Assembly: GCA_029865225.1 (NCBI GenBank)
Contig: JAOUHJ010000007.1
Coordinates: 1 to 64,000 of the forward strand
DNA length: 64,000 bases
Source: Nitrospira sp.
Lineage (GTDB): Bacteria; Nitrospirota; Nitrospiria; Nitrospirales; Nitrospiraceae
Direction: 5' to 3'
Each line of letters starts with the position of its first letter. Within the stretch, counting starts at the first letter, position 1. Shown here one piece after another: positions 3,493 to 62,309 of the stretch. The notes below the pieces were generated by a model that was given only the letters and a program-made list of their open reading frames with translations, searched no databases and was not told the origin of the DNA. A program made the translations under genes and the position numbers.

Positions 3493-3897
3493 GAGTGGCT
3501 CTTCAACGTGACAACAAAACCCACAGGCTGTGCCCTGTATCTCAGGATAACAAGAAGTTCCTTCCCTTCATATGGGGGGAACCTCGACTTGCGAGAAACC
3601 AGACCAGTCCAGCTTGCCGCAGGCTCCTCCGACCAGCCGATCCCGGCCCATGTTTGGCATCTTCCGAGCAGCGTGAACGGTTCATCTAGGGTCTTGGATC
3701 CGTGTCGGCATAGGCATGCTGTAAGACCGATTTTAAGAGGTTGCTGGTTCTGCTGAGAGGTGGGCCCTCGAAACTGCTTGAGGTCGCTTCCTGGGGTCTT
3801 GCCCAAATAGTTGATATGACTTGCTTTGCTTCCCACAGATTATTATTCTAAGCCCGCGGATAAGTTCGTATTCCAAATGGAGTGAGATGGATTGAGT
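3493..3897. other. Divergent intergenic region before the first sigma-54 activator
   Basis: No gene is supported; a 131-codon reverse frame (3836-3441) overlaps the lipoprotein start and has no ribosome binding site. On the forward strand, TTGCTT, 17 bases, TATTCT (about 3812-3845) is a possible sigma-70 promoter for the activator, but the match is weak. GGAG at 3879-3882 is the only plausible ribosome binding site for the next gene. No sigma-54 or sigma-28 site was found here, so the top regulator appears to be expressed by housekeeping sigma factor. Confidence 0.4.
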
Positions 3898-5349
3898 ATG
3901 AGCCAAGTTCACGTGCTGGTTGTCGATGACGATCCTGCCTTGCGTGAGATTCTCCAGGAAACGCTCATGCGAGAAAGCTATAGCGTGTCCACGGCAGAGG
4001 ATGGGGCAGGCGCGGTCCAAGCGGTCAAAGAGACCGTGGTCCACATTGTGATCACGGACTTCCAGCTACCTGATATCGATGGACTCGAGGTCATTGACCG
4101 CCTTTCCAAGCTTGACGCCAAGATCATCCCTATCGTGATGACCGGATTCGGCACGATTGAAACAGCTGTCCGTGCCATGAAGTCCGGCGCGTTTGACTTT
4201 ATTACGAAGCCGTTTGACCTCGGAACCGTTGCAGCGGTTGTTCGGAGGGCCGCAGAATTTCATCGGCTTCGACAAGAAAACCATCTCTTGCGACGAGCAG
4301 TACGCGATCAATATCGATTGGAGCAATTGGTGGGGGTGAGCGAACCGATGCAACAGGTGTTGGAGTTCGTCCAAAAGGTGGCCGACAGCGACAGCACGGT
4401 CATGATCCAAGGCGAAAGCGGGACGGGCAAGGAGTTGGTTGCACGGATGCTCCACTTCAATAGCCAGAGGCGAGACCGTCCATTGGTGCCGGTGAATTGC
4501 GGCGCAATCCCTGAAAATCTCCTCGAATCAGAACTTTTTGGACACGAGAAGGGTGCCTTCACCGGTGCGACGCATGCGCGTATGGGTCGGTTTGAACTCG
4601 CTCATGGAGGCACGATTTTCCTGGATGAAATCGGCGAAATGAGTCTCCCCTTGCAAGTGAAGCTCCTTCGAGTCTTGCAAGAGCGGGAATTTGAACGGGT
4701 AGGTGGAAACCGGACGATTCATGTCGACGTACGTATTATTGCGGCGACGAATCAGGATTTAGAGGCAATGGTCGAAGAACGCCGTTTTCGGCAAGATTTG
4801 TTCTATCGACTCAATGTGATTCCCATTGTCATTCCACCACTTCGAGAACGCCGTACCGATATTCCGCTCCTGATCGATCACTTTCTGAACCGATTCAATC
4901 AGAGCAAGCGCACCGAGGTGGTCGGTCTTGACGATGAGGCGCTTCGACTCCTGACCGAATACGATTGGCCGGGAAACATTCGGGAGCTGGAAAATATGAT
5001 GGAACGGCTGGTCGTCCTGAAGAAGCAAGGAATCCTGGCCTCCGAAGACCTTCCGCAAAAGATCAGTCGGAGGTCCATGATCCCCGAGCTGAAAGAACAA
5101 TTCATACGACTGAGCGAGGATGGCATTCATCTCTCGAGAGAGGTCGAGCAGTACGAGAAACACCTCATCATGGAGGCCTTGAGGAAGGCCAACGGGGTCA
5201 CCTCCCGAGCGGCCCAACTCCTCCATCTCAATCGAACGACATTGGTTGAGAAGTTGAAGCGCAAGGGGGTTGATCCGCGATCACAGGTGGAAACCCTTCC
5301 GCTTTGGCCGCGCGCATCCAGTCAAAAGATTGACGACCTCACGACGTAG
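3898..5349 (+). CDS. NtrC-type sigma-54 activator with receiver domain
   Basis: A three-domain response regulator. The receiver domain (about 5-118) has the acidic pocket VVDDD, phospho-acceptor Asp54 in ITDFQLPDIDG, Thr in MTGFGT and Lys in TKPFD. The AAA+ domain has Walker A GESGTGKE, the sigma-54 contact loop GAFTGA, Walker B GGTIFLDEIGEM and the arginine-finger region RFRQDLFYRLN. A Fis-type helix-turn-helix lies near residues 415-450. It should bind upstream sites as a hexamer and drive open complex formation by sigma-54 polymerase. It precedes the sigma-54-promoted TPR-flrBC operon and is the best candidate for its activator (FlrA/FleQ role), although classical FlrA/FleQ proteins lack an intact receiver. 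A TTG at 3892 is an alternative start. Confidence 0.85.
   Translation: MSQVHVLVVDDDPALREILQETLMRESYSVSTAEDGAGAVQAVKETVVHIVITDFQLPDIDGLEVIDRLSKLDAKIIPIVMTGFGTIETAVRAMKSGAFDFITKPFDLGTVAAVVRRAAEFHRLRQENHLLRRAVRDQYRLEQLVGVSEPMQQVLEFVQKVADSDSTVMIQGESGTGKELVARMLHFNSQRRDRPLVPVNCGAIPENLLESELFGHEKGAFTGATHARMGRFELAHGGTIFLDEIGEMSLPLQVKLLRVLQEREFERVGGNRTIHVDVRIIAATNQDLEAMVEERRFRQDLFYRLNVIPIVIPPLRERRTDIPLLIDHFLNRFNQSKRTEVVGLDDEALRLLTEYDWPGNIRELENMMERLVVLKKQGILASEDLPQKISRRSMIPELKEQFIRLSEDGIHLSREVEQYEKHLIMEALRKANGVTSRAAQLLHLNRTTLVEKLKRKGVDPRSQVETLPLWPRASSQKIDDLTT
5321..5334. promoter_or_regulatory. FleQ-like box upstream of the TPR-flrBC promoter
   Basis: GTCAAAAGATTGAC is a GTCA-N6-TGAC palindrome that matches the published FleQ box (GTCAATAAATTGAC) at 12 of 14 positions. 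It lies inside the 3' end of the activator gene, about 105 bases upstream of the -24 element at 5439, a normal enhancer distance. A chance match is possible because the site is in coding DNA. Confidence 0.45.
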
Positions 5350-5467: not shown

Positions 5468-7648
5468 GTGTATCGATGTAACGTGCGATATGCTCAATTG
5501 ATAGGTTCGATTGCCGTCTGGATGGCATGCGTCCCGGTGGCGATCGGCGAGTCTACTCCTCCGTCTTCCTCCACCCTCACGAATACGCCACCGGTCGAAC
5601 GTCCGGCTACCATGCAAGCTCCGGCGTGGATTGAAAGGCTTGCGCAACCGCTGCCCGACGATGGACCGAGGGCGGAAGGCCAGTCCTCTGGGATTGATGG
5701 ACTCGCGTGGCAGGAAGGCCGATCCGCCTACAAGAAAGGAGCGTGGGGCGAGGCTCAACGCTTTTTTGAAAAGATCGTGCACGATCATCCTGAAAGCTCG
5801 CTGGTTCCCTCGGCGAAAGCATACTTGGTTGAGTTATCCCTTCGGGATGAGGCTATAACGCAGAACCGATCCGAGGCCATTCAAGAGTACAAGAAGCTTC
5901 TGCGCGACCATCCGCAGTCCTCCAACGCCAGGAGAGCGGAATGGCGGATCGCAGATTTGTACTTTGAGCAAGGGTGGTTTCAAGAAGCACAGGCATTTTA
6001 CGAGCAAGCCATGGCTCATTCCCTCCATCTTCCGTTCGACGGGAATCGGGCCTTGTTAGGGCTCGGTTATACGTTGATGGCCACGGGGAAATGGCGAGAT
6101 GCTGAGCACGCCTTTGCAAATCTGAGAAAGCGAAGTGAGAGTGATTCGTTGCTGCAGGGTGCCACGGTGGGATTGGCCCATGCGTTATTCAGGCAAAAAC
6201 GCCTTTCCGATGCACAGCCCATCTATGATCTGAGCTATCGACTTTGGCCTCATCTAGTCAAAGGCGATCCGGTCACGCTTCAGCGCTATGCCATTACGGA
6301 GGCGCACGCACACCATGACGTCTCCGCGCGAGACTTGATGCTCCTCTTCTACAATCTCTATCCACGCCATGAGTATGCGCCAAAAGCTTTGCTGCATGTG
6401 GCTGAAACCTTGCGAAGTGCCGGGCAGAGACCCCTGGCTGAGTTTGTGTATGCCTTGATCCCGTCGATTTATCCCCAGAGCCAGCTGGACTCAATGGTCA
6501 AGCTACGACTTGCCACGCTCCGGACTCAGAGTCGTGTATCGGACGACGGCAATATCCTCAGTCCGATCATCGGAGCCATGATTCACAACGTGACGGCTCC
6601 GATAGACACCACAGCTTCATATCGAGCGCTGCTGGAGGAGATCGCCCTTCGGGAGGCGGACTCTCCTACAGGAAGCGAAGCGCTGTTTTACCTCGGGGAA
6701 GAGTACGAGAAGAGAAATGAGCTCAACGAGGCCATCCGTACGTACAAGGAGGTGACCTTTCGCACTGCAAGGGGAAGTGAGTTATGGGCCACAAAAGCCG
6801 CAGCGCGGTTGTCAGCCCTCCTCATACCATGGATTGAGGCGGCGATTGCATCGCATGACGATTGGACGGTCGTGAGTTTGTATCACCGACATGGCGTCAT
6901 AGCCGAGCAACGGTACGCGCGGTCCCCAGTGTTGCTGGAGATTGCCGAATCCCACAAGCGTCTAGGGTTTACGGCCGAGGCCGTGCGGCTGTTTCAGCAA
7001 GTCTTGAAAGTGCAGAAAGATTCGGCACTGGTTGAACCTGCCTTGCTGGGGCTTGGAAAGCTCTACCTCGATCAACAGGATCCCGAGGCGGCCAGGAAAG
7101 TCCTGGAGCGATACCGGTTTCAATTTCCTCTCGGGCGATACGACGGAGAGGTCCTGCATCTTCTAATCAGCGCCGTACGACAACAGCGTGACCTGCAAAG
7201 CCTCCTTCATCTCTGCCGAACATGGCTTGTGCGCCATCCGGCGCATCGCGAGCGCCCCGCCATGTATGTGCAGCTGGCCAAGACGTTGGGTGAATTGGAA
7301 AAGCTCGGTGAATCCGCACTGGCGTATGAAGAAGCGTTCAAAGCCGGCGCGACACAGTCTGTCGCCACGCTGCTGTCCTACGCGGATACGTTGTCTCGGT
7401 TGAATCGACATGAGTCGGCGGTTGCAGCCTACCGATCGGTGTTGGAAAAGAAACCAACGGCTCAGCAAGCTGAATGGGCACACTTGCAAACGGCCAAGCA
7501 TTGGACGGCGCTCAAGCAATACGATCGAGCCACCATTGCACTGGCAGAGCTTGATGTCGCCGACGATCAGATGATCAACCGCGTTGCCGCATCCCTGAAA
7601 CTCAGTCTGCAAACGGCCCGCCTATCTCAGAAAGTGAAGGGGCTATGA
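5468..7648 (+). CDS. Secreted tetratricopeptide-repeat protein heading the flrBC operon
   Basis: About 726 residues. A signal peptide (QLIGSIAVWMACVPVAIGES) is followed by a Ser/Thr/Pro linker and then helical TPR pairs across the whole protein, for example ARRAEWRIADLYFEQGWFQE, ALFYLGEEYEKRNELNEAIR and LLGLGKLYLDQQDPEAARKV. It is predicted to be periplasmic and to act as a protein-binding scaffold; no enzyme motif is seen. Its stop overlaps the kinase start by four bases, so the two are translated together. The position suggests that it senses or transmits basal-body assembly state to the kinase, but that is inference. GTG at 5468 or 5483 could be the start; the latter fits the promoter better. 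Confidence 0.8.
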   Translation: MYRCNVRYAQLIGSIAVWMACVPVAIGESTPPSSSTLTNTPPVERPATMQAPAWIERLAQPLPDDGPRAEGQSSGIDGLAWQEGRSAYKKGAWGEAQRFFEKIVHDHPESSLVPSAKAYLVELSLRDEAITQNRSEAIQEYKKLLRDHPQSSNARRAEWRIADLYFEQGWFQEAQAFYEQAMAHSLHLPFDGNRALLGLGYTLMATGKWRDAEHAFANLRKRSESDSLLQGATVGLAHALFRQKRLSDAQPIYDLSYRLWPHLVKGDPVTLQRYAITEAHAHHDVSARDLMLLFYNLYPRHEYAPKALLHVAETLRSAGQRPLAEFVYALIPSIYPQSQLDSMVKLRLATLRTQSRVSDDGNILSPIIGAMIHNVTAPIDTTASYRALLEEIALREADSPTGSEALFYLGEEYEKRNELNEAIRTYKEVTFRTARGSELWATKAAARLSALLIPWIEAAIASHDDWTVVSLYHRHGVIAEQRYARSPVLLEIAESHKRLGFTAEAVRLFQQVLKVQKDSALVEPALLGLGKLYLDQQDPEAARKVLERYRFQFPLGRYDGEVLHLLISAVRQQRDLQSLLHLCRTWLVRHPAHRERPAMYVQLAKTLGELEKLGESALAYEEAFKAGATQSVATLLSYADTLSRLNRHESAVAAYRSVLEKKPTAQQAEWAHLQTAKHWTALKQYDRATIALAELDVADDQMINRVAASLKLSLQTARLSQKVKGL

Positions 7649-8946
7649 CGAAAGCCGCGACGGGGAAATTGGAAGAGCGAGCGCTCCTTCAAGCAGCCTT
7701 CAAGAGTTTTGACGAAGCAGCACAAACGTTACAGCAGTCTTATGACGCATTGACGGCACGTGTTGAGCAGATGGATGTTGAGTTGGCGCACAGTAACGAG
7801 GCGCTTCGCCGGCAACTCAGCGAAAACGAGGCCATGCGAGCGCATCTCAACGGCATTCTCGACTCATTGTCCACGGGCGTGTTGGTGGTCGATGATCGGG
7901 GGATGATTGTCCGCTGCAATCACGCCGCTGAGGCGATGCTCGGTACCGGCGCCCAGGAGTTGCGGGAGCGCGTGGTGTCGGAGGTCCTCGGGGAGCGAGG
8001 GGTGAGCGTGTGTGATCGGCCTCAACGATTCGGGCAGACCGTGATGTCAGTCAGCCAGGTGCCACTGCGCAATGGCTCCAGCGAAGGGTCCAGTCATCTC
8101 ATTCTGCTCCAAGATGTCACGCGCCTCTATCAGCTTGAAGAGCAGTTACAGCGCAAAGATCGATTGGCTGCCATGGGTGAGCTCATCGGTCGAATCGCAC
8201 ACGAAGTCAGAAATCCATTGGGGAGTGTCGAGTTGTTCTCATCGATGCTTCAACGGGATCTGCCCAAGGAGTCTACTGCTAAACGGTACGCTGAGCAGAT
8301 CTCACAAGCTGTCCAATCGATGGATCGACTCCTGGCTAATCTTCTCTTGTATACGAGGCCGACTCGTATGGCGAGCGGATGGCATCGTGCCGAACCCTTG
8401 ATTCATGATTCCATGAAGTTAGCTGCCCATGCGATCACCAAGGTGCCGGTAGAGGTTCGATTGGATCTGGACAAGGACATTCCCTTGCTCTGGTGTCACG
8501 AAGGGCAGTTGAAGCAGGTCATCGTCAATTTAGTCGTCAATGCTGTTCAGGCCATGCCCAACGGCGGTCGTTTGACGATCGGTCTGCACAAAGAATCTCC
8601 GCAGACCCTTGGCATCCCGGCCGTTCGACTGGCAGTCAGCGATAGCGGTGTCGGTATTGATCCGGAATTCCGATCACGTATGTTTGACCCGTTCTTTACG
8701 ACGAAGGATGACGGAACCGGTCTTGGACTTGCCATTGTCTATTCAATCGTGGAGGCGCACCAAGGACGGATCGATGTGGAAAGCATGATCAAGCACGGCT
8801 CGACCTTCGCCATCATCCTTCCGCATCCCTCGACGACGGTGACTCCTGGGAAGGATCAGACGTCGGAGAAAGTGCAGAACGAACTGAGTGACGGAGAGCC
8901 TGTGGGCCGTGGATTGGCGTTAACGGAGGACTGGCGACATGAATGA
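7645..8946 (+). CDS. flrB: PAS sensor histidine kinase, FlrB/FleS-like
   Basis: A 433-residue kinase with no membrane segment. It has an N-terminal coiled coil (about 10-75), a PAS domain (ILDSLSTGVLVVDDRGMIVR), a HisKA domain with phospho-His in GRIAHEVRNPLGSVELFSSM, and an ATPase domain with N box VNLVVNAVQAMPNGGR, G1 DSGVGIDPE, F box FDPFFTTKDDGT and G2 GTGLGLAI. It should phosphorylate the next gene product, the FlrC-like activator, which starts eight bases before this gene ends. A soluble PAS kinase next to a sigma-54 activator just upstream of flgB is the FlrBC/FleSR layout of class III flagellar control. The input signal is unknown; the TPR protein in the same operon is a candidate. 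Confidence 0.85.
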   Translation: MTKAATGKLEERALLQAAFKSFDEAAQTLQQSYDALTARVEQMDVELAHSNEALRRQLSENEAMRAHLNGILDSLSTGVLVVDDRGMIVRCNHAAEAMLGTGAQELRERVVSEVLGERGVSVCDRPQRFGQTVMSVSQVPLRNGSSEGSSHLILLQDVTRLYQLEEQLQRKDRLAAMGELIGRIAHEVRNPLGSVELFSSMLQRDLPKESTAKRYAEQISQAVQSMDRLLANLLLYTRPTRMASGWHRAEPLIHDSMKLAAHAITKVPVEVRLDLDKDIPLLWCHEGQLKQVIVNLVVNAVQAMPNGGRLTIGLHKESPQTLGIPAVRLAVSDSGVGIDPEFRSRMFDPFFTTKDDGTGLGLAIVYSIVEAHQGRIDVESMIKHGSTFAIILPHPSTTVTPGKDQTSEKVQNELSDGEPVGRGLALTEDWRHE

Positions 8947-10351
8947 ACGGGAGAAAAACGGCCCTCTCCTCGACAATGGCGAGGATAGCGAGCGAGTACT
9001 GATCGTTGATGATGATCCGTCGATGCGAACGGCGTTGCTGGAGACGGTGAAGCGACTAGGGTATTCAGCCCAAGCCGCGATTGATGGGAGCGATGCCTTG
9101 GAACGGCTTGTCCGGTTTCGTCCCTGGTTGGTGTTGACGGATCTTAGGATGCCACGGCTGAGCGGTCTCGACTTGATCAAGGAGATCAGGTCTCGATCGC
9201 CCCAAGTCACGATCGTCCTCATGACGGCCTATGGGACGATCGAAACCGCCGTGGAAGCCATGAAGCTTGGCGCGAGCGAATACTTGCTGAAACCGTTTTC
9301 GATGGATCTCCTGGAACGCACCATCGTGAGCCTGAAGGCAGGACGAGAAGAAGGGCTTCCCGCTGTTCCACTTGCTCAATCGACAGAAAGCCGAGCTATC
9401 TTAACCCAAGACCCTGGAATGGTCAGACTCTTGAGTACGATCGAGGGAGTCGCCGCGAGCCAGGCCACCGTGTTGATTCATGGGGAAAGTGGTACCGGGA
9501 AAGAGCTTCTGGCTCGGTTTATCCATGCCAGGAGCCCGCGAGCGCACCGCCCGTTTATCGCAGTCAATTGCGCGGCGTTGCCCGAGGGCTTGCTGGAAAG
9601 TGAACTGTTTGGGCACGAACGTGGGGCATTCACCGGCGCCTTGATCAGAAAGATCGGAAAATTCGAAATGGCTCATACAGGCACCCTGCTCCTGGATGAA
9701 ATCAGCGAGATGAATCTTCCCCTTCAAGCCAAATTGCTGCGGGTGCTCCAAGAGCGGGAGGTGGATCGGATCGGAGGGCGCGATCCGGTACCGGTCAACA
9801 TCAGAGTGGTCGCGACGACGAATCGGGCCTTGTATCGTGACGTCGAGCAAGGTCGCTTCCGAGAGGATCTCTATTATCGTCTGAACGTCTTTCCCATCAC
9901 GGTTCCGCCGCTTCGAGAACGCGCGATTGATATCCCTTTGCTCGCCAAACATTTTGTGGCTCAATCGGCCTCGAGGAATGGTCTCACCCCCTCGACTGTC
10001 TCGGAATCCGCGCTGGCGCATCTACAACGGTTGGCATGGAAGGGAAATGTGCGGGAATTAGAGAATGTGATGGAACGGGCGGTTCTGTTGGCGGGAGATG
10101 GACCGATTCTTCCCGAGCATTGTCCTTCGGAAATGCCTAGCGAACCATTGGGGTTGCCGCTTCGTTCTCAACAACCGACCAATGGATCATTGTGGGAGAT
10201 GGAGCGGGAGTTGATTTTTAAGACACTGGCACGTGTGAAGGATAATCGGACACATGCCGCGAAAGAATTGGGCATCAGCATCCGCACGTTGCGGAACAAG
10301 CTCCGGGAATATCGAGAAAGCGAACGGCCATTGTCTATTCCGTCACAGTAA
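8939..10351 (+). CDS. flrC: NtrC-type sigma-54 activator, FlrC/FleR-like
   Basis: A 470-residue response regulator. The receiver (about 18-135) has VDDDPS, acceptor Asp in [12 protein letters not shown], Thr in MTAYGT and Lys in LLKPFS. The AAA+ domain has [25 protein letters not shown] and [13 protein letters not shown] Fis-type helix-turn-helix ends the protein ([20 protein letters not shown]). It is translationally coupled to the kinase and is its likely substrate. Its expected targets are the sigma-54 promoters of flgB, fliL and flgF in this window; binding sites were not resolved for flgB and flgF. Confidence 0.85.
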
Positions 10352-13402: not shown

Positions 13403-14395
13403 ATGGCGAAGAATCTGACGGGGGAACAGAAAGCAGCCATTCTTCTTCGCGCCATCGGTGAGGAGGCGGCTGCCCAAGTCATGAAGCAACTTGATCCGAA
13501 GGAGATCAAGAAGCTCGGAGGGTTCATGAGCGAGACCGCACAGATCTCTCGAGACGAAGAGGAGGCGGTCATTTCAGATTTTCGGGCAGCGAGTGCGAGT
13601 GGGGGAGTACAGTTTCGGGGGAAAGAGTTCATCAAGACAGTGCTAACGAAAGCGCTCGGATCGGAGAAGGCGGCGCGCATTATTGAATCGATGACGCAGA
13701 AGAGTTATCCAGGCCTAGAAGCATTGAAATGGGTGGACGTGAAAACCCTCACGCAAATGCTGAAGGTCGAACATGCCCAAACTGTCGCGGTGGTACTCGC
13801 CCATTTAGAGAGCGAACAGGCCAGCCAAGTATTGGCTGCTCTGCCGAATGATATGCGAGGGGATGTGGCGCTTCGGCTGGCGACAATGGAGGAAGTGCCG
13901 CCGGACGTCTTGGAGGAACTGAGCGAGACCTTACAGGAAACGTTGGTGGCAGGGAAAGAGATGAGTTCGCACAGCGTCGGAGGTGCGGAGGTCATCGCCA
14001 ATATTTTGATGCGGATGGACAAGACCAACGAGGGCGGCATCATGACCAGAATTTCCGAAACAAGCCAGACCCTCGCCGACAATATCCGGGCGCTCATGTT
14101 CGTGTTCGATGATCTTGTGAAGGTCGATGACCGTGGGATGCAGGAGTTGATGAAGGAGATCAGTAAGGAAGATCTTCCGGTGGCTCTGCGCGGCGCCAAT
14201 CCGGACGTGAAAGAGAAATTCTTCAAGAATATGTCCAGTCGTGCCGCAGAAATGGTGAAGGACGATATGGAGGCGCGTGGACCGGTCAAGGTTTCGGATG
14301 TCGAGAAAGCACAACAGAATATTCTTAAGGTCTGTCGAAAACTGGAGGACGAGGGCCGCATTGTGATCGCTGGGGTGGGCGAGGAGATGCTGTAG
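13403..14395 (+). CDS. fliG: Flagellar motor switch protein FliG
   Basis: A 330-residue C-ring protein that binds FliF with its N-terminal domain and meets the stator with its C-terminal domain. Seen are the N-terminal GEQKAAILLRAIGEEAAAQV, the middle-domain VEHAQTVAVVLAHLESEQAS (the family EHPQ is EHAQ here) and the C-terminal charged torque helix around MQELMKEISKEDLPVALRGA. It overlaps the start of the next gene by one base. No truncation is seen. Confidence 0.95.
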   Translation: MAKNLTGEQKAAILLRAIGEEAAAQVMKQLDPKEIKKLGGFMSETAQISRDEEEAVISDFRAASASGGVQFRGKEFIKTVLTKALGSEKAARIIESMTQKSYPGLEALKWVDVKTLTQMLKVEHAQTVAVVLAHLESEQASQVLAALPNDMRGDVALRLATMEEVPPDVLEELSETLQETLVAGKEMSSHSVGGAEVIANILMRMDKTNEGGIMTRISETSQTLADNIRALMFVFDDLVKVDDRGMQELMKEISKEDLPVALRGANPDVKEKFFKNMSSRAAEMVKDDMEARGPVKVSDVEKAQQNILKVCRKLEDEGRIVIAGVGEEML

Positions 14396-15420
14396 TGAAT
14401 GGCGCGGCGATATCGGCGGGGATATTTCGCGAACATGAACTGAGTCGACTGCAGGGGACGATTCTCATCGTCGATGATGAGGAAAGGATTCGCCATCTCT
14501 TTCTCGAACTGCTCCGGCCGGAACGGGTGCCAGTGCGGGTCGCCGGTTCCGGGCAAGAAGCGATTGCGATGGTCAAGGAGATGCCTCCAGCTCTTTTGAT
14601 TGTGGATGTCCTGCTGCCCGATCAAGATGGGATTGCGGTTCTTGAGGAAGCTCAGAAAATTGATAATCGGATCATCGGCGTGGTGATGACGGGAGCAGCG
14701 ACGGTTGAACTGGCTGTGCGTGCGATGAAGGCCGGCGCGATCGACTTTTTGATCAAGCCGTTTCAGAACGAGATCATGCTGAGTACCGTGCGTCGCTTGC
14801 TGGAACTCCATCGGTTACGTGCCGAGAACACGGTCTTGAAACATGCTGCCGTCCAGTCTGGTGCGGTGCGGCTGCAAAGTCTGCCGTTTCAGACGTTCGG
14901 AGATGATGAAACGGCGGGGGAGGATGACGGCCAGTCTGAATACGAGCGTGGCGTAGCGGATGGCCAACGACGGGTCGAAGAAGAGCGTCGGCAAGATTTG
15001 GCTGTGCTGATCGACGCAGCGAGGAAGTTTGATGTTGCTCAATCCAAACTGCAGCGGACGTTCGAGGATGAGGTGATTGCCTTGTCGATTCAGATCGTCT
15101 CCAAAATTCTGCATGAGGCGGCCGAATCGAGCCGGGAGCAAATTGTCATCCAGGTGAAAGATGCACTCGGTGCGGTGGGAAAGTCGGATACCCTGGTGAT
15201 ACAGGTGCATCCACTCGATGCAGCCGCTATCGAATCGGCACGTACGGAGCTGACCAGGCAACCAGACACTGCGCTGAAGTTGGCGATCGAACCGGTGGCT
15301 TCGCTCCCACGGGGAAGTTGTCTGGTGCATACCAGCACACGATTAGCGGACGCGTCTCTCGACACGCAGTTGCTCCGCTTGGGTGATACCTTAAGGAACC
15401 GGGCATATCGTGAGTCTTAG
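14395..15420 (+). CDS. fliH: Receiver domain-FliH fusion: export ATPase regulator
   Basis: A 341-residue protein in the FliH position between FliG and FliI. Residues about 22-125 form an apparently complete receiver domain: acidic pair Asp27/Asp28, acceptor Asp71 in LIVDVLLPDQDG, Thr99 in MTGAAT and Lys121 in LIKPF. The linker after it (RRLLELHRLRAENTVLKHA) resembles the receiver-AAA linker of the activator at 3898. From about 180 onward it is FliH/SctL-like: a charged helix, ADGQRRVEEERRQDLAVLID, then the conserved VIALSIQIVSKILHEA and the C-terminal domain that binds the FliI N-terminus. FliH normally holds FliI as an inactive heterotrimer and brings it to the export gate. The fusion suggests phosphorylation control of export, which is inference. 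The GTG start follows GAGGAG inside fliG. Confidence 0.88.
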   Translation: MNGAAISAGIFREHELSRLQGTILIVDDEERIRHLFLELLRPERVPVRVAGSGQEAIAMVKEMPPALLIVDVLLPDQDGIAVLEEAQKIDNRIIGVVMTGAATVELAVRAMKAGAIDFLIKPFQNEIMLSTVRRLLELHRLRAENTVLKHAAVQSGAVRLQSLPFQTFGDDETAGEDDGQSEYERGVADGQRRVEEERRQDLAVLIDAARKFDVAQSKLQRTFEDEVIALSIQIVSKILHEAAESSREQIVIQVKDALGAVGKSDTLVIQVHPLDAAAIESARTELTRQPDTALKLAIEPVASLPRGSCLVHTSTRLADASLDTQLLRLGDTLRNRAYRES

Positions 15421-16717
15421 CAATCTGATCGAAGATGTCAGCCCAATTGAGGTGTCGGGGAAAGTGGCGCAAGCGGTCGGAATTGTCGTGGAAGGATATG
15501 GGCCGATGACGACGGTCGGAGAGCTGTGTCGGATTACTCGGGAAGTGGGGGATGGACCGATCCCTGCAGAGGTGGTGGGATTCCGTGGGGATCGCGTGTT
15601 ATTGATGCCACTCGGAGAGATGCAGGGCATTGGCCCGGGAAGTCGAATTACCATGACTGGCCAGGTGGCCAACCTGGCTGTCGGGCCGGGCCTGCTGGGG
15701 CGTGTGCTCGATGGTTGTGGGACTCCCATCGACGGCAAGGGCCTGCCAGCCGCGAACGCCAGATATCCGCTTCATGCCGATGCTCCGAATCCGTTGCTAC
15801 GAGCGCGCATCCAAGCTCCGCTTGATCTCGGCATTCGTGCGATCAACGGCTTTCTTACCTGTGGTCGGGGCCAAAAAATGGGGATCTTCTCTGGTTCCGG
15901 GGTCGGCAAGAGTGTGATGTTGGGAATGATCAGCCGCTACACAAGAGCGGATGTGAACGTCATTGCCTTGATTGGAGAGCGAGGCCGAGAGGTCAACGAA
16001 TTCTTGGAGCGCGATCTCGGTCCTGAGGCGCTGGCGCGCTCCGTGGTCGTGGTGGCTACCTCAGATCAGGCTCCGCTCATCCGACTCCGTGCCGCATTGG
16101 TGGCGACGACGATTGCTGAGTATTTCCGTGACGCCGGGAAACAGGTCTTGTTGTTGATGGATTCATTGACGCGATTGGCCTACAGTCAGAGAGAAGTCGG
16201 TCTTGCGATCGGAGAGCCTCCGACGACGAAAGGCTACACGCCCTCAGTGTTCGCCTTCTTGCCGAAACTCTTGGAACGTGTGGGGACGGGACCTGGTCCA
16301 GGCACCATAACCGGATTGTACACGGTGCTCGTCGATGGAGACGATCTGAATGATCCAATCGCCGATACCGTCCGGTCGATCTTAGACGGCCATATCGTCC
16401 TATCCCGTACGCTGGCGGCACGCAATCATTTTCCCGCCATCGATCTACTCCAAAGCACCAGTCGCGTCATGCGGGATATCGTCAGCCGATCACACTATGA
16501 TGCGGCCAGGCGTCTTCTGGAATTGGTCGCGCGGTATCGACATTCTGAGGACTTGGTTCTCCTGGGAGCCTACAAACCAGGGATGAACGCAGATCTTGAT
16601 CGTGCGGTTGATGCCCAGGACGCGATTAATGGGTATTTGCGCCAAGACATCGACCAGGGAGCAGGCTTTACATTGTCTGTGGAGCAACTCGAGGCACTGG
16701 TCAAGCAAAAGGCATGA
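15410..16717 (+). CDS. fliI: Flagellar export ATPase FliI
   Basis: A 435-residue F1-beta-like ATPase that energises unfolding and entry of flagellar export substrates. Walker A is GSGVGKS (about residue 163), Walker B sits in QVLLLMDSLTRLAYSQREVG, and the family signatures GERGREVNEF and GDDLNDPIADTVRSILDGHI are present. The GTG start lies 11 bases inside the end of the FliH fusion gene. This supports coupled synthesis of the partner subunits. Confidence 0.95.
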   Translation: MSLSNLIEDVSPIEVSGKVAQAVGIVVEGYGPMTTVGELCRITREVGDGPIPAEVVGFRGDRVLLMPLGEMQGIGPGSRITMTGQVANLAVGPGLLGRVLDGCGTPIDGKGLPAANARYPLHADAPNPLLRARIQAPLDLGIRAINGFLTCGRGQKMGIFSGSGVGKSVMLGMISRYTRADVNVIALIGERGREVNEFLERDLGPEALARSVVVVATSDQAPLIRLRAALVATTIAEYFRDAGKQVLLLMDSLTRLAYSQREVGLAIGEPPTTKGYTPSVFAFLPKLLERVGTGPGPGTITGLYTVLVDGDDLNDPIADTVRSILDGHIVLSRTLAARNHFPAIDLLQSTSRVMRDIVSRSHYDAARRLLELVARYRHSEDLVLLGAYKPGMNADLDRAVDAQDAINGYLRQDIDQGAGFTLSVEQLEALVKQKA

Positions 16718-19832: not shown

Positions 19833-22556
19833 ATGGGAAGGCTCCCCGAACTGCAACTTAGGCATACTGCGCTCAGAATCGCTGAGCACCTGCTCGACCG
19901 ATACAAGCTGGGGCGGTTTCTCGAATTATACCCTCTTCCTCCAAGCGGCCTCGCTATTGTGGATTTCCAGCCCTGGCAAGGTTATGCGGGCACGCTTATG
20001 GTAATCGGTGGCAGCGGTTTTGCTGAAGAGCGTCACGGCAACTACGTGGAGGTGGGAGGCAAGCCAGCCCGAGTTATCGAAGCTGAGCCTAACCGCCTGA
20101 CTGTCATCACACATCACCAGACACGCAACGGGCCAGTCAAGGTTACCGTCGACGGGGTGACGGCTACGGGGCCGCGAGATTTCGACGTGCTACCCTGGCC
20201 TGAGCCCGATGCCGGCGATGACGGCCCACCTTACTCGTACGCTGGTGCCGGCTCGGGTGGTGCACCAGCAGCGGGCACCGTGCCTCCGACCGGAACCGCA
20301 CGCATTCTTGTTGTGGTCTGCAATCCGACAGACCTTGTTCCGCCCAACCCTGCCAACATACGGCAGGATGTGGTGGACACATTCGCAGACGTAACCACGT
20401 TCTACGACCAAGCGAGCTACGGGCAGCTTAACGTTCAGGTTGATGTCACGAACTTCGTTACGCTTCTGAACAACACTGACTACTACCACCGTGCCAACGG
20501 CGCTACTGGTTATCCAAACATTGACAGTGCCGTTCTCGACCAACTGATAGCCGAATGTGCGCAGGGCGCTGTGGATCAAGGCTTCAACCTGAATAACTAC
20601 TCGGTGATGACAGCATCAGTCTACCTGCCAGGATTCACCGTACGGGCCTGGGGCGGATGGAGCCAAAGCAACTTCGCCTACGACAACGGGGCTGGGGTTT
20701 CAATCAACATCACGACCACCAATCCGCTGGGATTGATCGCTCAGCGGCACGATGCGGACTGGGGACGCGCCGCCCATGAGTTCGGCCACAATCTGGTCGA
20801 TGGCGGACTGGCATTTGGAGAGGACGTGTACAGTAGCGATCTGATCGACCCGACCGAAGCGACGGTGCACAACTTTGAGATGATGGGCAACCATGATTCC
20901 CATCCGCTGTTTTCTGCCTTCTACATGCACCAACTCGGCTGGTACAACGCCGCGAACATCGTCGACCTGGTTTGGGACCGTAATCCGTTCTCGCAGGAAT
21001 ACGACATCGTCGCCCACGGCCTGACACAGGACGCCTTGGCAACTCGTTACCACTTGATTCGCATCAAGGTGAGTGAGGGGCTCTATTACTTCGTGGAGGT
21101 CCGCCAGCGGCCAGATCCTGCCGCTGCCACACCGCAGATCTTCGACGAGAACATCTTGTTACCGATGGGTGGTGCCCCCGACGGTGGGGTCTTGGTGACC
21201 AAGGTGATCACCGGTGAACTGAACAACAACCACCAGACCCGGCTCATCACGCTATTGCAGGAGCAGACGAGAGTGATGGTTACCGGAGAGGAAGCCGTCG
21301 ATCCGTTGCGCACGCTGAGGATCGCCGTCGTCAACGACCACGTCCAGGCGAGGCCGCGCGTTTGCCGTGTGCGTATCGAATGGGCCCAGGTGATTGGAGA
21401 TACGCCAGGTGGGGACTTCGACCTGCGCATCGAGCCATGGGGCCCAGGCTGGGAGACCACGGACATTTGGATTGACCGTAATCCGTTTGGTACCTATGAC
21501 AACACCGATGCTGCCGGTAACCCTGTCGGCAATGGGGACGCACCACGCCCCCTAGAGATCAACCGCTTCGAAGCGCGCATCCGCAACGACGGCTCGGCGG
21601 CTGCGAACAACGTTAAGGTTACGCACTACGCGGTGGAGCCGCCCGGCGTGGGCGACAACGGCAATTGGGCGCCGCTCGCCACCTATTCTGTTGCGGCAAT
21701 TCCGGCGAACGGTTCGGTTACCCGCCAGGTGAACTGGGTACCAATTGTTGGGGAACATACGTGCCTGAAAGTCGCGATCTCACCGCAACTCGGTGAGGTA
21801 ACCACCGGCAATAACTCCGCGCAGGAGAACGTCTTCACGTTCCAGCCCGCGGCGGGGTCGGTGCCCGAGCCGGTGGTGATGACTGTCGCGGTGCGCAACC
21901 CGCTCAGGGAGCGCTCGTTGGTGATGATCTCGCTGCAGGGTGTACCTTATGGCTACTACGTGTACTTCCCGCATCGCTGGTTATGGCTCGATGGCCTGGC
22001 CGAGCGCAAGCTTGACTTGCTCGTCATTCCGCTGATCGACATTCAGGAAATGAAGCGTCGCAAAGCCGATATCCGACTGTTCGGCCGCGTGCCGCGCGTC
22101 TATTCGCAGAAGCTGGACATGACGGGCTACCCAGGTTCATGGTTTGCGCCAATCGGCGGCATTTTGGCGAATGTCACGCCGAAGCACCGGTCTGATGTCA
22201 AGCTTGATGATAAGGTACGCCCGGAAAAGGAAAACGTCGTTTGGATCTTCGGCGTCGTATCGCCGCACATCAAGGCCCAGCAGCTTCGCATCGACATGAC
22301 ACGGCCAGACGGCTCGGTCGTAATCGCTCATACAAACACCGACGAAAATGGTCGCTTCAGCGTTGTATTCGAACTGGCGCAGAAAAGCAGGAAACCAAGC
22401 GCGGCTCAGCGTAAGGGCGCTATGTACGCGTTCCAAGCGCACATCATCAATGCCATGGAGCTTGCACCGGCGGATTCGAACATCGTCTGGTACAGGCTTG
22501 GTGATCGCGTCAAGGAGCAGCTAACGAGCGATGACCGCTGTGATGACGAGGGGTAG
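19833..22556 (+). CDS. M6-like zinc metalloprotease without signal peptide
   Basis: A 907-residue protein. Residues about 38-115 form an IPT/TIG-like fold (SGLAIVDFQPWQGYAGTLMV, GGKPARVIEAEPNRLTVIT). A Gly/Ala/Pro linker leads to a metalloprotease domain (about 155-400) with the zinc motif HEFGH at residues 315-319 and the M6/immune-inhibitor-A-type block FEMMGNHDSHPLFSAFYMHQ. The C-terminal half holds beta domains, one resembling a CARDB adhesion fold (FEARIRNDGSAAANNVKVTH). M6 enzymes are normally secreted, yet this start, MGRLPELQLRHTALRIAEHL, is an amphipathic helix and no signal peptide is visible. The ribosome binding site GGGAGGCG fixes the ATG. Codons end in G or C more often than in the flagellar genes, which hints at transfer. 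Confidence 0.75.
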   Translation: MGRLPELQLRHTALRIAEHLLDRYKLGRFLELYPLPPSGLAIVDFQPWQGYAGTLMVIGGSGFAEERHGNYVEVGGKPARVIEAEPNRLTVITHHQTRNGPVKVTVDGVTATGPRDFDVLPWPEPDAGDDGPPYSYAGAGSGGAPAAGTVPPTGTARILVVVCNPTDLVPPNPANIRQDVVDTFADVTTFYDQASYGQLNVQVDVTNFVTLLNNTDYYHRANGATGYPNIDSAVLDQLIAECAQGAVDQGFNLNNYSVMTASVYLPGFTVRAWGGWSQSNFAYDNGAGVSINITTTNPLGLIAQRHDADWGRAAHEFGHNLVDGGLAFGEDVYSSDLIDPTEATVHNFEMMGNHDSHPLFSAFYMHQLGWYNAANIVDLVWDRNPFSQEYDIVAHGLTQDALATRYHLIRIKVSEGLYYFVEVRQRPDPAAATPQIFDENILLPMGGAPDGGVLVTKVITGELNNNHQTRLITLLQEQTRVMVTGEEAVDPLRTLRIAVVNDHVQARPRVCRVRIEWAQVIGDTPGGDFDLRIEPWGPGWETTDIWIDRNPFGTYDNTDAAGNPVGNGDAPRPLEINRFEARIRNDGSAAANNVKVTHYAVEPPGVGDNGNWAPLATYSVAAIPANGSVTRQVNWVPIVGEHTCLKVAISPQLGEVTTGNNSAQENVFTFQPAAGSVPEPVVMTVAVRNPLRERSLVMISLQGVPYGYYVYFPHRWLWLDGLAERKLDLLVIPLIDIQEMKRRKADIRLFGRVPRVYSQKLDMTGYPGSWFAPIGGILANVTPKHRSDVKLDDKVRPEKENVVWIFGVVSPHIKAQQLRIDMTRPDGSVVIAHTNTDENGRFSVVFELAQKSRKPSAAQRKGAMYAFQAHIINAMELAPADSNIVWYRLGDRVKEQLTSDDRCDDEG

Positions 22557-58173: not shown

Positions 58174-61059
58174 TTACGCGGCCGCCTCACGGATAGGCTG
58201 ATAGCCTCGTCGGTAGGATTCCAACACGCGGACGAGTCGAGCGACTTCGAGCTCGAGTTGTGCATAAACGGGTGGCGCATCGTGAAGCGCGCTGAGCCGA
58301 CCGACGGCCTCCAGACGACTAGCCGTGAGTCCGACTTCAGAAGCACACAGATTACCGGCGGTTCCTTTGAATGTATGCGCCGCTCGTTCGACCGCTGATG
58401 AATCGGCCTCGGCCAGCGCCGTTCTGATTTCGGCCAGCATCGTCTGATGACGATCAAGGAACAGGCAAATAAGCTGAGCGAATAAGTCGTTGTCACTCCC
58501 GATATTTTGGTACATCCTGGCGGGGTCAAAGACGCCTCGTGTCGGGTCGGTCGTCGCCTGTGTTGGTGGGCTTGTCTCGGAAGCGGTACTGCTAGGCGGT
58601 AGGATGGCCCACCGTGCAAGAGCAGCACGAAGTTCTTCCAACTTGATCGGTTTGGAAAGGTAATCGTCCATTCCGGCGGCCAAACAACGCTCCCGATCTC
58701 CCTGCATGGCATTGGCGGTTACGGCAATGATCGGGATATGCGGCATGGATGACGAAGGCTCATTCGATTCGGCATCGTCTCCTGCTGGCGTTGTGGAAGA
58801 TGCGGCTGCGGCTTCACGCTCGCGAATGTTCTTGGTCGTTTCGAACCCGTCCATGATGGGCATCTGACAATCCATCAAAATGGCGATGTAGTCACCCTTC
58901 TTCAAGGCAGTCAACGCTTCCTGTCCGTTGTCGACGACGTCAGGTTGATAGCCTAGCTTCTCAACCATGCGAACGGCGAGTTTCTGATTGACGATATTGT
59001 CTTCTACCACGAGCACGTGTCGGTGCCGGATGTTTTCGGCGACCGTATGCCTGGTGACGAGTTGGGGGACCGTTGAGAGCGTCCGAGGCTCTTTTGGTTT
59101 GTGGGTTTCGGCGAGGCCGAGGACGGTTCGCAAACAGTCTCGTAACTCATCATGACGAACGGGTTTCGGTAGGTACCCCATGGCGCCCGCCAGACGGGCC
59201 TCTTCTGCGTGGCCGCGTTGGAGCAGCGAAGTCATCACGACAAGACGAATCCCAGCTCCTTCCGGATGGTACTGGATTTCTCGAGCAAGCTGGAGCCCAT
59301 CCTTCCCTGGCATCACGAAATCTAAGATGGCGAGGTCGTAGGGTGTACCACACTGCGTGGCTTCGGAGATTCGACGCAAGGCCGATTCAGCGTCTTGTGC
59401 GAGGTCGTCCACCATCCCCCAGCCGGAGACCAAGTGATGAAGGATGAGACGGTTCGATTCGTTATCATCGACGATTAAGACATGTTTTCCGGCAAGATCT
59501 CCCATCGGAAGAATCGCACGTGGTGAGTCAGCTTGTTTGAGGAGACGTGCCGTACACCAGAAGGTGCTTCCTCGCCCTTCCGTGCTGCGCACACCGATCG
59601 TCCCTCCCATTAGTTCTACGAGTTGCTTCGAAATCGAAAGGCCAAGCCCGGTGCCGCCAAACTTTCTCGTTGTTGAACTATCGGCCTGCACGAATGGACG
59701 AAAGAGTTTGGCTTGAGTAGTCGGGCTGATGCCGATACCGCTGTCGGTGACTTCAAACCGAATGACAGCCGACTCGGGGAGGTCCTCTTCGAGATAGGCC
59801 TGCAGGGTCACTTCTCCCTTGTCGGTAAATTTCACGGCATTTGCCACAAGATTGGTCAGGATCTGACGCAATCGTCCGGGATCACCTTTGAGTCCGGTCG
59901 GGACCGCGGCGTGGACGAGTCCGGTCAGCTCAAGTCCTTTCGTTTCAGCGCGTTCAGCAAACTGGGCGAGCACCTGCTCGACCGTCGTGCGCAGGTTGAA
60001 GTCAAGGCACTCCAGTTCCAGTTTGCCGGCCTCAATTTTGCTGCATTCCAGCACGTCATTGATTAACTGCAGCAACGCTTCGCCGCATTGGCGTATGGTT
60101 TCGGCGTAGGACTGCTGCTCCGGCGTCAATGCGGTTTCCATGAGCAGACTTGTCATGCCGATCACGCCGTTCATCGGCGTTCTTAATTCATGGCTGACCG
60201 TTGCCAGGAACGCCGACTTGACCCGTGCGGACTCCTTTGCTTCCTCCAGTGCCTTGTCGAGACGTTGATTGCTCTGAAGCAGTTGGTCTGCAGATAATTT
60301 GAGCGCCTGTTCAGTCTTGCGGATGTTCGTCATATCCGTGGCATAGCCACGAACCACCCCATGTTGAGGAAGAGGACAGAAGGTCCATGAAAAGCTCGCG
60401 TCAGGAAGGAGGACTTCCTCGTTGTGGAGCGGTCGACCGGTCTTGAGACATTGCTTCACAATGTCTTGTAGGCGGTTTGGCGCGACGTTTGGAAATCCAT
60501 CAAGGCTGTAGCCGAATCGAGAGAGGAGCGCGATCATCGCAGGATTCGCATACAACAGACTGGAGTAGCGATCCAGTTCAATGAGGGGTGAGGGGCTCTC
60601 CTCTGCGATCGCGGCCAAGCGATCACGGTCCTGCTCCAATCCCACCTCATGGGACAGGTCTCGAATGGTGATGAGCAGAACCCTCGTGCCATTGAGTTCA
60701 GTTCGAACGCAGGTCCATTCTACAGGGGTGCTCATCGTGGTGCTGCTCATGAGAAGCTGTTGTGTTGCGGAGATAGGAAGGCTCGTTTTCAACGTGGTCT
60801 TCAGTTGAGCTGACAGGCGCGCTTTGCTGGAGTGGGTGAGTTTCGCCCAAAGACCTGGAAAGAATAATCCCTGACCGGAGCTGGATCCAACCCCGAGTAA
60901 TCTGATCCCCTCTCGATTAATCCCTTGAACAGTGAGAGCGTGATCAAGAATGAGAGTGGCAAACGGAAGCCCGTCAAGAAGTTCCATCGCCACGGGGACG
61001 ACCGGTTGAGCGGATACCTTTGGAACCCGGTGTCGTCGTTTGCGTTGCGGTCTGTTCAT
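58174..61059 (-). CDS. Hybrid sensor kinase with two receivers and an HPt domain
   Basis: About 961 residues. Two PAS-like regions (LLDGLPFATLILDHALTVQG; then SPLIELDRYSSLLYANPAMI) precede HisKA with phospho-His in FLATVSHELRTPMNGVIGMT and an ATPase domain (VANAVKFTDKGEV, DSGIGISP, GGTGLGLSIS). Then come a receiver domain (VDDNESNR, AILDFVMPGKDG), a second receiver (VVEDNIVNQK, LMDCQMPIMDG) and an HPt domain with His in AAHTFKGTAGNL. It has no membrane helix, so the signal is internal. It is a BarA/TorS-like phosphorelay, and its end receiver is unknown. Its ATG overlaps the stop of the HD-GYP gene by one base. Confidence 0.88.
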   Translation of the reverse strand: MNRPQRKRRHRVPKVSAQPVVPVAMELLDGLPFATLILDHALTVQGINREGIRLLGVGSSSGQGLFFPGLWAKLTHSSKARLSAQLKTTLKTSLPISATQQLLMSSTTMSTPVEWTCVRTELNGTRVLLITIRDLSHEVGLEQDRDRLAAIAEESPSPLIELDRYSSLLYANPAMIALLSRFGYSLDGFPNVAPNRLQDIVKQCLKTGRPLHNEEVLLPDASFSWTFCPLPQHGVVRGYATDMTNIRKTEQALKLSADQLLQSNQRLDKALEEAKESARVKSAFLATVSHELRTPMNGVIGMTSLLMETALTPEQQSYAETIRQCGEALLQLINDVLECSKIEAGKLELECLDFNLRTTVEQVLAQFAERAETKGLELTGLVHAAVPTGLKGDPGRLRQILTNLVANAVKFTDKGEVTLQAYLEEDLPESAVIRFEVTDSGIGISPTTQAKLFRPFVQADSSTTRKFGGTGLGLSISKQLVELMGGTIGVRSTEGRGSTFWCTARLLKQADSPRAILPMGDLAGKHVLIVDDNESNRLILHHLVSGWGMVDDLAQDAESALRRISEATQCGTPYDLAILDFVMPGKDGLQLAREIQYHPEGAGIRLVVMTSLLQRGHAEEARLAGAMGYLPKPVRHDELRDCLRTVLGLAETHKPKEPRTLSTVPQLVTRHTVAENIRHRHVLVVEDNIVNQKLAVRMVEKLGYQPDVVDNGQEALTALKKGDYIAILMDCQMPIMDGFETTKNIREREAAAASSTTPAGDDAESNEPSSSMPHIPIIAVTANAMQGDRERCLAAGMDDYLSKPIKLEELRAALARWAILPPSSTASETSPPTQATTDPTRGVFDPARMYQNIGSDNDLFAQLICLFLDRHQTMLAEIRTALAEADSSAVERAAHTFKGTAGNLCASEVGLTASRLEAVGRLSALHDAPPVYAQLELEVARLVRVLESYRRGYQPIREAAA

Positions 61060-62309
61060 CACGCGGCTCTCGGCAAGATTGGGTCCAGATGTATGGCGAC
61101 ATTGACACGTTCATGAATCGGGTCGAGCACACGCAGGACGGTTCGTACGGTATGGTCGGACGACGGTGCCGCGAGATCGATCTCAAGCGGCGTGGCGTAG
61201 GAGCCGCCTTGTGGATCCGTTGTCACTTTGACAAGAGGCTTGAGGCGCTGCTGCGGATTGACGCCGACCACAACGGCTTGTTCACCGGTATTGAGTTTGA
61301 GCAGACTTCCAACCGGGTAGACCCCGATGCTGCGAATCATGGTCTCCACTAAGGGTTTTGGGAACTGCCCCCGCTCGCCTGCGAGAAAGAGTTGCCGAAC
61401 GGCATCGTGCGGGATCAGCGCCGGGCGTGTTCCCCGCCGAGTGACCATCGCGTCGTACACGTCAACAATCCCGACAATCTGGGCCAGAGGGGAGATCTTG
61501 TCGTTCCCGAGAGCGGCGGGAAAACCGGTCCCATCGGTACGCTCATGATGTTCCAGTACAATGCGAAGGACGTCCTCGTGCATCCCAGGGTGTTCGGAAA
61601 GGAGCGTCACACCAAGCTTACAATGCTGTTCGAGTAGGGTCTTGTCTTGGCCGGAACATTCGTCTCGTTTTCGAACGAGATTACGAGGGAGACGGACATA
61701 GCCTGCGTCGTGGAGCAGGGCGCCCATGCCGACTAATTCCTGCTGTGGTTGCTCCAGGCCGCTTTCAATGGCAACGATGAGAGAGAGGACGCAGGTATCC
61801 AATGCATGACCTGTCAGGGACCGATCGAATTGTTTGATTTTCTGGATGGCAACCTGCGTGGCGATCGCCACCCGGTCATTGAGGACATGATCTAAGACGT
61901 TCGACACGATGGCTTTTGTGGCTTCAGGAGTAGGAGGCACTCCACGCTCAAGGTCATCAAAGATGCGCTCCACCGCTTCTTTGGCCTGCGCATAAATCAC
62001 CACTGCAGGTTGGCATCCAAGTACAGGCTCGGTGGCCCGCTCGACCTGTGCTTCTTGGGGAGGAGGGACAGTTGGCCCTGCCGGTTGGTCGTTCACGGAG
62101 GAGGGGGTGGTCGTTAAAGGAAGATCAGCTCCTTTACTGGTATCGATGGTCACCATCCGTATCCCATATTGCTTCATGATCTCAATGGTCTGTAAGTCGT
62201 TGACCATTCGCTTATGGAAGAGGAATGGTGTCCGATACCATGGAACATCCACGTCAACCAGATACATGCCGGGAACGAGTTGCTCGATCGCGATTTGCTT
62301 GGTCGCCAT
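61059..62309 (-). CDS. HD-GYP domain c-di-GMP phosphodiesterase
   Basis: About 416 residues from ATG 62309, which follows GGAG and lies downstream of the sigma-28 promoter. The N-terminal DUF3391-like domain (AIEQLVPGMYLVDVDVPWYR) precedes the HD-GYP domain with HD in ALLHDAGYVRLPRNLVRK and the signature HHERTDGTGFP, where Tyr of GYP is Phe. It should hydrolyse c-di-GMP. The hybrid kinase gene follows with a one-base overlap, so the two are expressed together. Confidence 0.88.
   Translation of the reverse strand: MATKQIAIEQLVPGMYLVDVDVPWYRTPFLFHKRMVNDLQTIEIMKQYGIRMVTIDTSKGADLPLTTTPSSVNDQPAGPTVPPPQEAQVERATEPVLGCQPAVVIYAQAKEAVERIFDDLERGVPPTPEATKAIVSNVLDHVLNDRVAIATQVAIQKIKQFDRSLTGHALDTCVLSLIVAIESGLEQPQQELVGMGALLHDAGYVRLPRNLVRKRDECSGQDKTLLEQHCKLGVTLLSEHPGMHEDVLRIVLEHHERTDGTGFPAALGNDKISPLAQIVGIVDVYDAMVTRRGTRPALIPHDAVRQLFLAGERGQFPKPLVETMIRSIGVYPVGSLLKLNTGEQAVVVGVNPQQRLKPLVKVTTDPQGGSYATPLEIDLAAPSSDHTVRTVLRVLDPIHERVNVAIHLDPILPRAA

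Follow-up and report, generated by a model that had tools for sequence, protein, structure and literature searches.

A response-regulator receiver domain fused to the flagellar protein FliH in one family of Nitrospirota

The window analysed here, a stretch of 64,000 nucleotides from a Nitrospira sp. contig (JAOUHJ010000007.1), carries a flagellar cluster in which the gene between fliG and fliI joins a response-regulator receiver to FliH; we call its product REC-FliH (Table 1). The reading frame contains zero internal stops, its start overlaps the fliG stop in the letters TAGTG, and its 3' end overlaps the start of fliI by 11 bases. Pfam placed Response_reg at residues 23-132 (79.3 bits, E 3.1e-22, cut-off 30.2) and FliH at residues 204-328 (53.8 bits, E 2.4e-14, cut-off 24.1). 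A sequence-only reading of this DNA had claimed such a fusion, which is borne out by the two domains lying above their cut-offs in one frame, and each of the residues it had named (Asp27, Asp28, Asp71, Thr99, and Lys121) was found at the claimed position. REC-FliH reached the Pfam family level and remained below the NCBIfam equivalog cut-off for FliH (55.9 bits, E 4.4e-15, against 180 for PRK05687.2-1). The whole genome holds a single PF02108 match, which is REC-FliH, and 85 matches to PF00072, the receiver of REC-FliH among them, and Pfam matched neither a sigma-54 AAA+ domain nor a Fis-type helix-turn-helix in REC-FliH. The protein is the sole FliH of the genome, yet it is built like a response regulator.

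Table 1. Features of the REC-FliH locus, with positions counted from the first nucleotide of the window.
Feature	Position	Strand	Basis or remark
NtrC-type sigma-54 activator N1	3892..5349	+	Most likely source lineage of receiver and linker
FlrB/FleS-like PAS histidine kinase	7645..8946	+	Candidate kinase only
FlrC/FleR-like response regulator	8939..10351	+	Pfam, tree; receiver not the source
fliG, upstream neighbour	13403..14395	+	ORF list, Pfam
REC-FliH gene	14395..15420	+	341 aa, one intact ORF, GTG start
Receiver domain (PF00072)	14461..14790	+	Pfam, conserved residues, AlphaFold2 five-strand receiver fold at high confidence
Asp71 codon	14605-14607	+	In receiver of REC-FliH
Lys121 codon	14755-14757	+	In receiver of REC-FliH
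Linker, residues 133-170	14791..14904	+	Receiver helix 5 extended, LRxEN motif, then a stretch like the N-terminus of plain FliH
FliH domain (PF02108)	15004..15378	+	Pfam
fliI, export ATPase, downstream neighbour	15410..16717	+	ORF list, Pfam

The regulatory genes at 7645-8946 and 8939-10351 are taken to be FlrB/FleS-like and FlrC/FleR-like, respectively, from their place and domains. Elsewhere in the window, a 962-aa protein on the minus strand (58174-61062) has receiver-like stretches at 59131-59481, 58813-59016, and 58618-58743, and a 907-aa protein on the plus strand (19833-22556), beside flagellar genes, gave weak TIG and CARDB matches.

A PF02108 search in a sample of 395 genomes of the phylum returned a match in 218, and 87 of these FliH-bearing genomes fall in the same family as the window (f1 in an automatic grouping). 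Regions were fetched for 80 of the 87, the window included, and 77 of them proved fused, as did all seven of the remaining loci, so that 84 of the 87 sampled family genomes with FliH carry the fusion. By profile search, receiver and FliH share one frame at 87 loci, all in the window's family, which correspond to these 84 genomes plus the second copies L001, L014, and L024 (our locus numbers). Outside the family, 131 genomes of the phylum sample bear FliH; sequences were read for 67 of them (72 loci, each with a FliH frame), and none has a receiver in that frame. The other 64 were judged by frame length alone, and their frames measure at most 306 aa, except for G041, which has a 780-aa frame whose PF02108 match lies under the cut-off; fused frames have at least 338 aa, although a short fusion might still fit into about 250-306 aa, and nine of the 64 reach 250 aa.

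The comparison was extended to other phyla, where 14 of the 15 genomes reached via loci carry FliH. Phylum samples gave FliH in 143 of 174 genomes for the phylum of a Deltaproteobacteria bacterium (L278), with frames picked among the matches listed, in 135 of 200 for that of a Nitrosomonas, and in 68 of 119 for that of a Planctomycetota record. From the other-phylum lists, 64 FliH frames of at least 320 aa were picked by eye and 60 were read (G617, G741, G693, and G735 being omitted); a FliH frame was recovered at all 60 loci and a receiver frame at none. Besides, at least 116 loci were located by the FliI motif in named genomes, and none of the 83 with a FliH frame among those listed was fused. 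Within what was sampled, namely the phylum and parts of three other phyla, the fusion is restricted to one family; the search for N-terminal receivers that the sequence-only reading had proposed for this phylum and others located them, within these samples, in that family alone.

Plain FliH occurs in three of the 87 family genomes, two in genus g3 and a third in g6 (L062, L073, and L060, from G060, G218, and G143), which indicates that the receiver is dispensable for some family members and makes the g3 and g6 genomes a natural comparison for the role of the fusion. A FlrC-type gene lies upstream of plain fliH in all three, and N1 is present in the two for which more upstream sequence was fetched (L208 and L207).

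The phosphorylation site, which the sequence-only reading had described as complete in the window's protein, is retained across the 77 aligned fused sequences apart from losses of Asp28. Asp71 and Lys121 are present in all of them, residue 99 is Thr in 75 and Ser in two, and residue 27 is Asp in 75 and Glu in two. Residue 28 is Asp in 66 sequences, the window included (14476-14478), Ala in nine, His in one, and Gly in one, and 10 of these 11 losses fall in genus g1. Ten of the 111 receiver columns are invariant, those of Asp71 and Lys121 included, and Phe occupies residue 118, presumably the switch aromatic by CheY numbering, in 69 of the 77. Over 12 pairs, dN/dS ranged from 0.026 to 0.201 in the receiver and from 0.069 to 0.328 in the FliH part, with the receiver value lower in 11 pairs, synonymous change being near saturation for some pairs and one linker value being uncomputable.

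The ancestry of the receiver was addressed with a tree of 95 rows (25 fused receivers, 21 of N1, 18 of FlrC position, and 31 other receivers of the window's own genome, taken from the best-scoring loci out of the 85 matches) and 113 columns, which the tree program flagged as few for that number of rows; the N1 rows were picked by place and by the letters following the receiver. In this tree, fused and N1 receivers join at 100/100, away from FlrC and from the 31 own-genome receivers. FlrC can be ruled out as the source, because a separate clade (100/96) unites 17 of the 18 rows of FlrC position, the outgroup row of L122 lying elsewhere. The helical linker of N1, with the letters HRLRQENHLLRRAV, is retained in REC-FliH as HRLRAENTVLKHAAV, HRLRxEN being common to both. 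Given this linker and the 100/100 grouping, the activator lineage of N1, about 10 kb upstream, is the most likely source from which both parts were copied. This agrees with the sequence-only reading, which had suspected capture from the NtrC-type activator (placed at 3898, here 3892) and had noticed the likeness of the two linkers. Among the upstream stretches fetched, moreover, all 18 from family genomes and both from f2 genomes still contain N1, indicating that the receiver was copied and not moved.

Since the fused receivers form a single clade (support 90/72, found in 86% of bootstrap trees), one origin is the simplest reading. This clade is nested in N1, beside the N1 receivers of g4 and g7 (98/69), a position that may result from long-branch attraction. 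The N1 proteins of g4, g7, g11, and g14 have no LRxEN linker motif; those of g4 and g7 in the upstream regions L200, L201, L202, and L204 are the ones whose receivers group with the fused ones, an association for which gene conversion or long branches are candidate explanations. A tree of FliG and FliI together (53 rows) gives no clear branching at the base of the family and needs two changes of the REC label, and 10% of its bootstrap trees need one; one gain with or without one loss (in g3 and g6) is therefore compatible with it. A FleQ homologue and FleSR are noted as flagellar regulators of Nitrospira ND1 and N. defluvii in the available part of one source (PMC5767232), and N1 may be that FleQ homologue.

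Behind the receiver, Arg142 of the linker is conserved in 77 of 77 fused proteins. The linker is followed by VLK....V....L.DF or a variant of it (17 fused rows, compared by eye and without a statistic), and this stretch aligns with the V-I/L-K....V..F/Y.L.E that opens many plain FliH proteins (19 rows, by eye). From this alignment with the N-terminus of plain FliH, it seems that almost the entire FliH follows the receiver, which would then sit at the end used for docking. In 35 of the 84 fused genes, the linker contains a start codon preceded by a loosely Shine-Dalgarno-like sequence, at positions that are not conserved, which gives a weak hint of an internal start yielding a FliH-only product. 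The commonest such codon is a GTG at residues 146-148 (homologous to 14830-14838 of the window), with 21 occurrences among the 84 genes; plain FliH would start there, and the window has GTC at residue 147.

Structure prediction with AlphaFold2 gave a complete receiver fold and the FliH C-terminal domain, each of good quality in a separate model. With an alignment of 13 receiver rows, the ten-residue blocks from 21 to 140 reached a pLDDT of 93-98, representing a complete receiver, and helix 5 and the linker were predicted as one helix (125-154, last block 72), the FliH half being poor. With 45 rows, mostly of FliH, a long helix spanning residues 179-245 was predicted together with the C-terminal domain of FliH, with blocks 181-340 at 89 or above; quality was poor in the linker and in the latter half of the receiver (residues 115-136 and 154-171 below 50, where the alignment was poor). 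The pTM values were 0.51 and 0.50, neither model being good throughout. In a Foldseek search of the PDB with the model from 45 rows, the best 50 rows were mostly receivers, including NtrC1 and NtrX, and contained no FliH chain; the FliH half alone had no PDB sequence match at E up to 10.

Known proteins suggest how the two parts could work together. According to the accessible text of one study, helix 5 and the linker of unphosphorylated NtrC1 form one long helix in a dimeric protein, and phosphorylation disrupts the receiver interface and the dimer (PMC4878744). For Salmonella, the available portion of another describes FliH as a coiled-coil dimer held by residues 101-140, with FliI bound by its C-terminal domains and FliN and FlhA bound by its extreme N-terminus (PMC9114704). 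Our preferred reading, put forward tentatively and with confidence a little short of even, is that phosphorylation of REC-FliH controls the docking of FliH2-FliI through receiver pairing and the linker helix. A kinase would phosphorylate Asp71 and thereby alter the pairing of the two receivers on the FliH dimer, as in NtrC1; the linker helix would relay the change to the N-terminal docking segment, which would set FliH2-FliI on the C-ring (FliN) and the export gate (FlhA). Phosphorylation might make the export ATPase arrive either faster or more slowly, and export would be coupled to whatever signal drives the expression of flagellar genes. Because the receiver sits at the end that docks on FliN and FlhA, docking control seems likelier than control of the pairing of FliH with FliI, which the sequence-only reading had suggested. 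Points against docking control are the support of only 90/72 for the fused clade, the missing LRxEN in the N1 proteins of four genera, the loss of Asp28 in 11 of 77 fused proteins, the occurrence of plain FliH in three genomes of the family, and the absence from fused FliH of the Trp that f2 FliH has in the stretch after the linker (6/6), whose likeness to the N-terminus of plain FliH was judged by eye.

The kinase in question has a near candidate in the FlrB-like protein, the sole histidine kinase encoded by those genes from N1 to fliH that were searched. We take helix alpha-1 of the receiver to be the face that contacts the kinase, with contact positions assumed from general knowledge. At residue 32, the fused receivers have Ile in 20 of 25 rows, Val in three, Ala in one, and Met in one, against Met in 15 of 15 FlrC rows; residue 35 is Leu in 23 of 25 fused receivers against Ala in 15 of 15 FlrC; and residue 39 is Leu in 16 of 25 fused receivers, Thr in 10 of 19 N1, and Thr in eight and Ser in seven FlrC. 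The differences at residues 32 and 35 lean mildly, though not decisively, against the kinase of FlrC.

These observations bear on a different function, raised in part by the sequence-only reading, in which REC-FliH would act as a phosphate sink or sensor, competing with N1 or FlrC for a flagellar kinase so that free or docked FliH feeds the state of assembly to transcription. We regard it as unlikely. The ancestry that the receiver shares with N1, still encoded in the same cluster, would suit such competition, as would the presence of one kinase gene among those searched; helix alpha-1 of the fused receivers is unlike FlrC at residues 32 and 35, however, and unlike most N1 and all FlrC at residue 39, and a conserved helical link into FliH would be superfluous for a sink, yet the linker has been kept. 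Finding a kinase close to FliH would be unsurprising, given that the export gate protein FlhA of H. pylori binds FlgS, a kinase; that binding alone, however, gave no FlgR phosphorylation in vitro, as far as the accessible part of the source goes (PMC6978683).

An alternative that appears improbable to a similar degree is that the receiver serves as a docking module, binding FliN, FliM, or FlhA in the manner of phosphorylated CheY on the switch and replacing the N-terminal aromatic residue of FliH. In Salmonella FliH, Trp7 and Trp10 interact with FliN and FlhA, in the available portion of the source (PMC9114704). By eye, 13 of 19 plain FliH have an aromatic residue just ahead of V-I/L-K, against none of 17 fused proteins at the aligned column. 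However, the aromatic is missing from six of the 19 plain rows too and is therefore not a universal mark of FliH, 38 of 77 fused proteins have Tyr at residue 139, one column earlier, and the lineage of the receiver is NtrC-type.

Receivers can work without phosphorylation, and the loss of Asp28 in 11 fused proteins could be read as a sign that this receiver is structural only, a dimer clamp or spacer whose phosphorylation is unused; this is very unlikely, considering that Asp71, Lys121, and Thr or Ser at residue 99 are each kept in 77 of 77 sequences while 101 of 111 receiver columns vary. An assembly error or frameshift joining two genes, which the sequence-only reading had named as grounds for rejecting the fusion together with homologs whose two parts are always separate, is practically out of the question, since the identical single-frame fusion recurs in 84 of 87 family genomes and dN/dS is far under 1 in receiver and FliH parts alike.

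Control of flagellar export is usually explained by FliK/FlhB switching and by chaperones. REC-FliH has in common with FliH, the peripheral stalk of the FliI ATPase, the C-terminal domain, the coiled middle, the place between fliG and fliI, and the single copy, and differs by its N-terminal receiver, which no FliH read outside the family has. With NtrC-type activators (N1, the nearest by the tree, and NtrC1, NtrX, and LuxO in the PDB) it shares the receiver and LRxEN helical linker, carrying FliH in place of the AAA+ and DNA-binding domains. The FlrC/FleR-like activator likewise has a receiver encoded in the same flagellar cluster, but that receiver belongs to its own clade and is not followed by an LRxEN linker. 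In cyclic di-GMP control of FliI, a signal also acts directly on the export ATPase complex, but there a small molecule binds FliI, whereas here a receiver sits on FliH (Trampari et al., 2015, PMC4591828, as given in the accessible text). No published description of a receiver on FliH was found in the open-licence literature, a search that could miss work under other names or in subscription journals; the words "receiver" and "fusion" are absent from the available part of a paper on FliH sequences (PMC2674601), and that of another mentions FliH and the REC domain separately (PMC5706428).

Altogether, the flagellar export machine of these bacteria may be under the direct influence of a signalling kinase. 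The fuller reading, of a two-component system on the export ATPase in which activator and FliH stator carry sister receivers addressed by the same kinase, so that one signal would serve expression and export in most of the family, is in our view possible and rather doubtful. Through a conserved receiver within FliH, phosphorylation would have direct control of the export ATPase.
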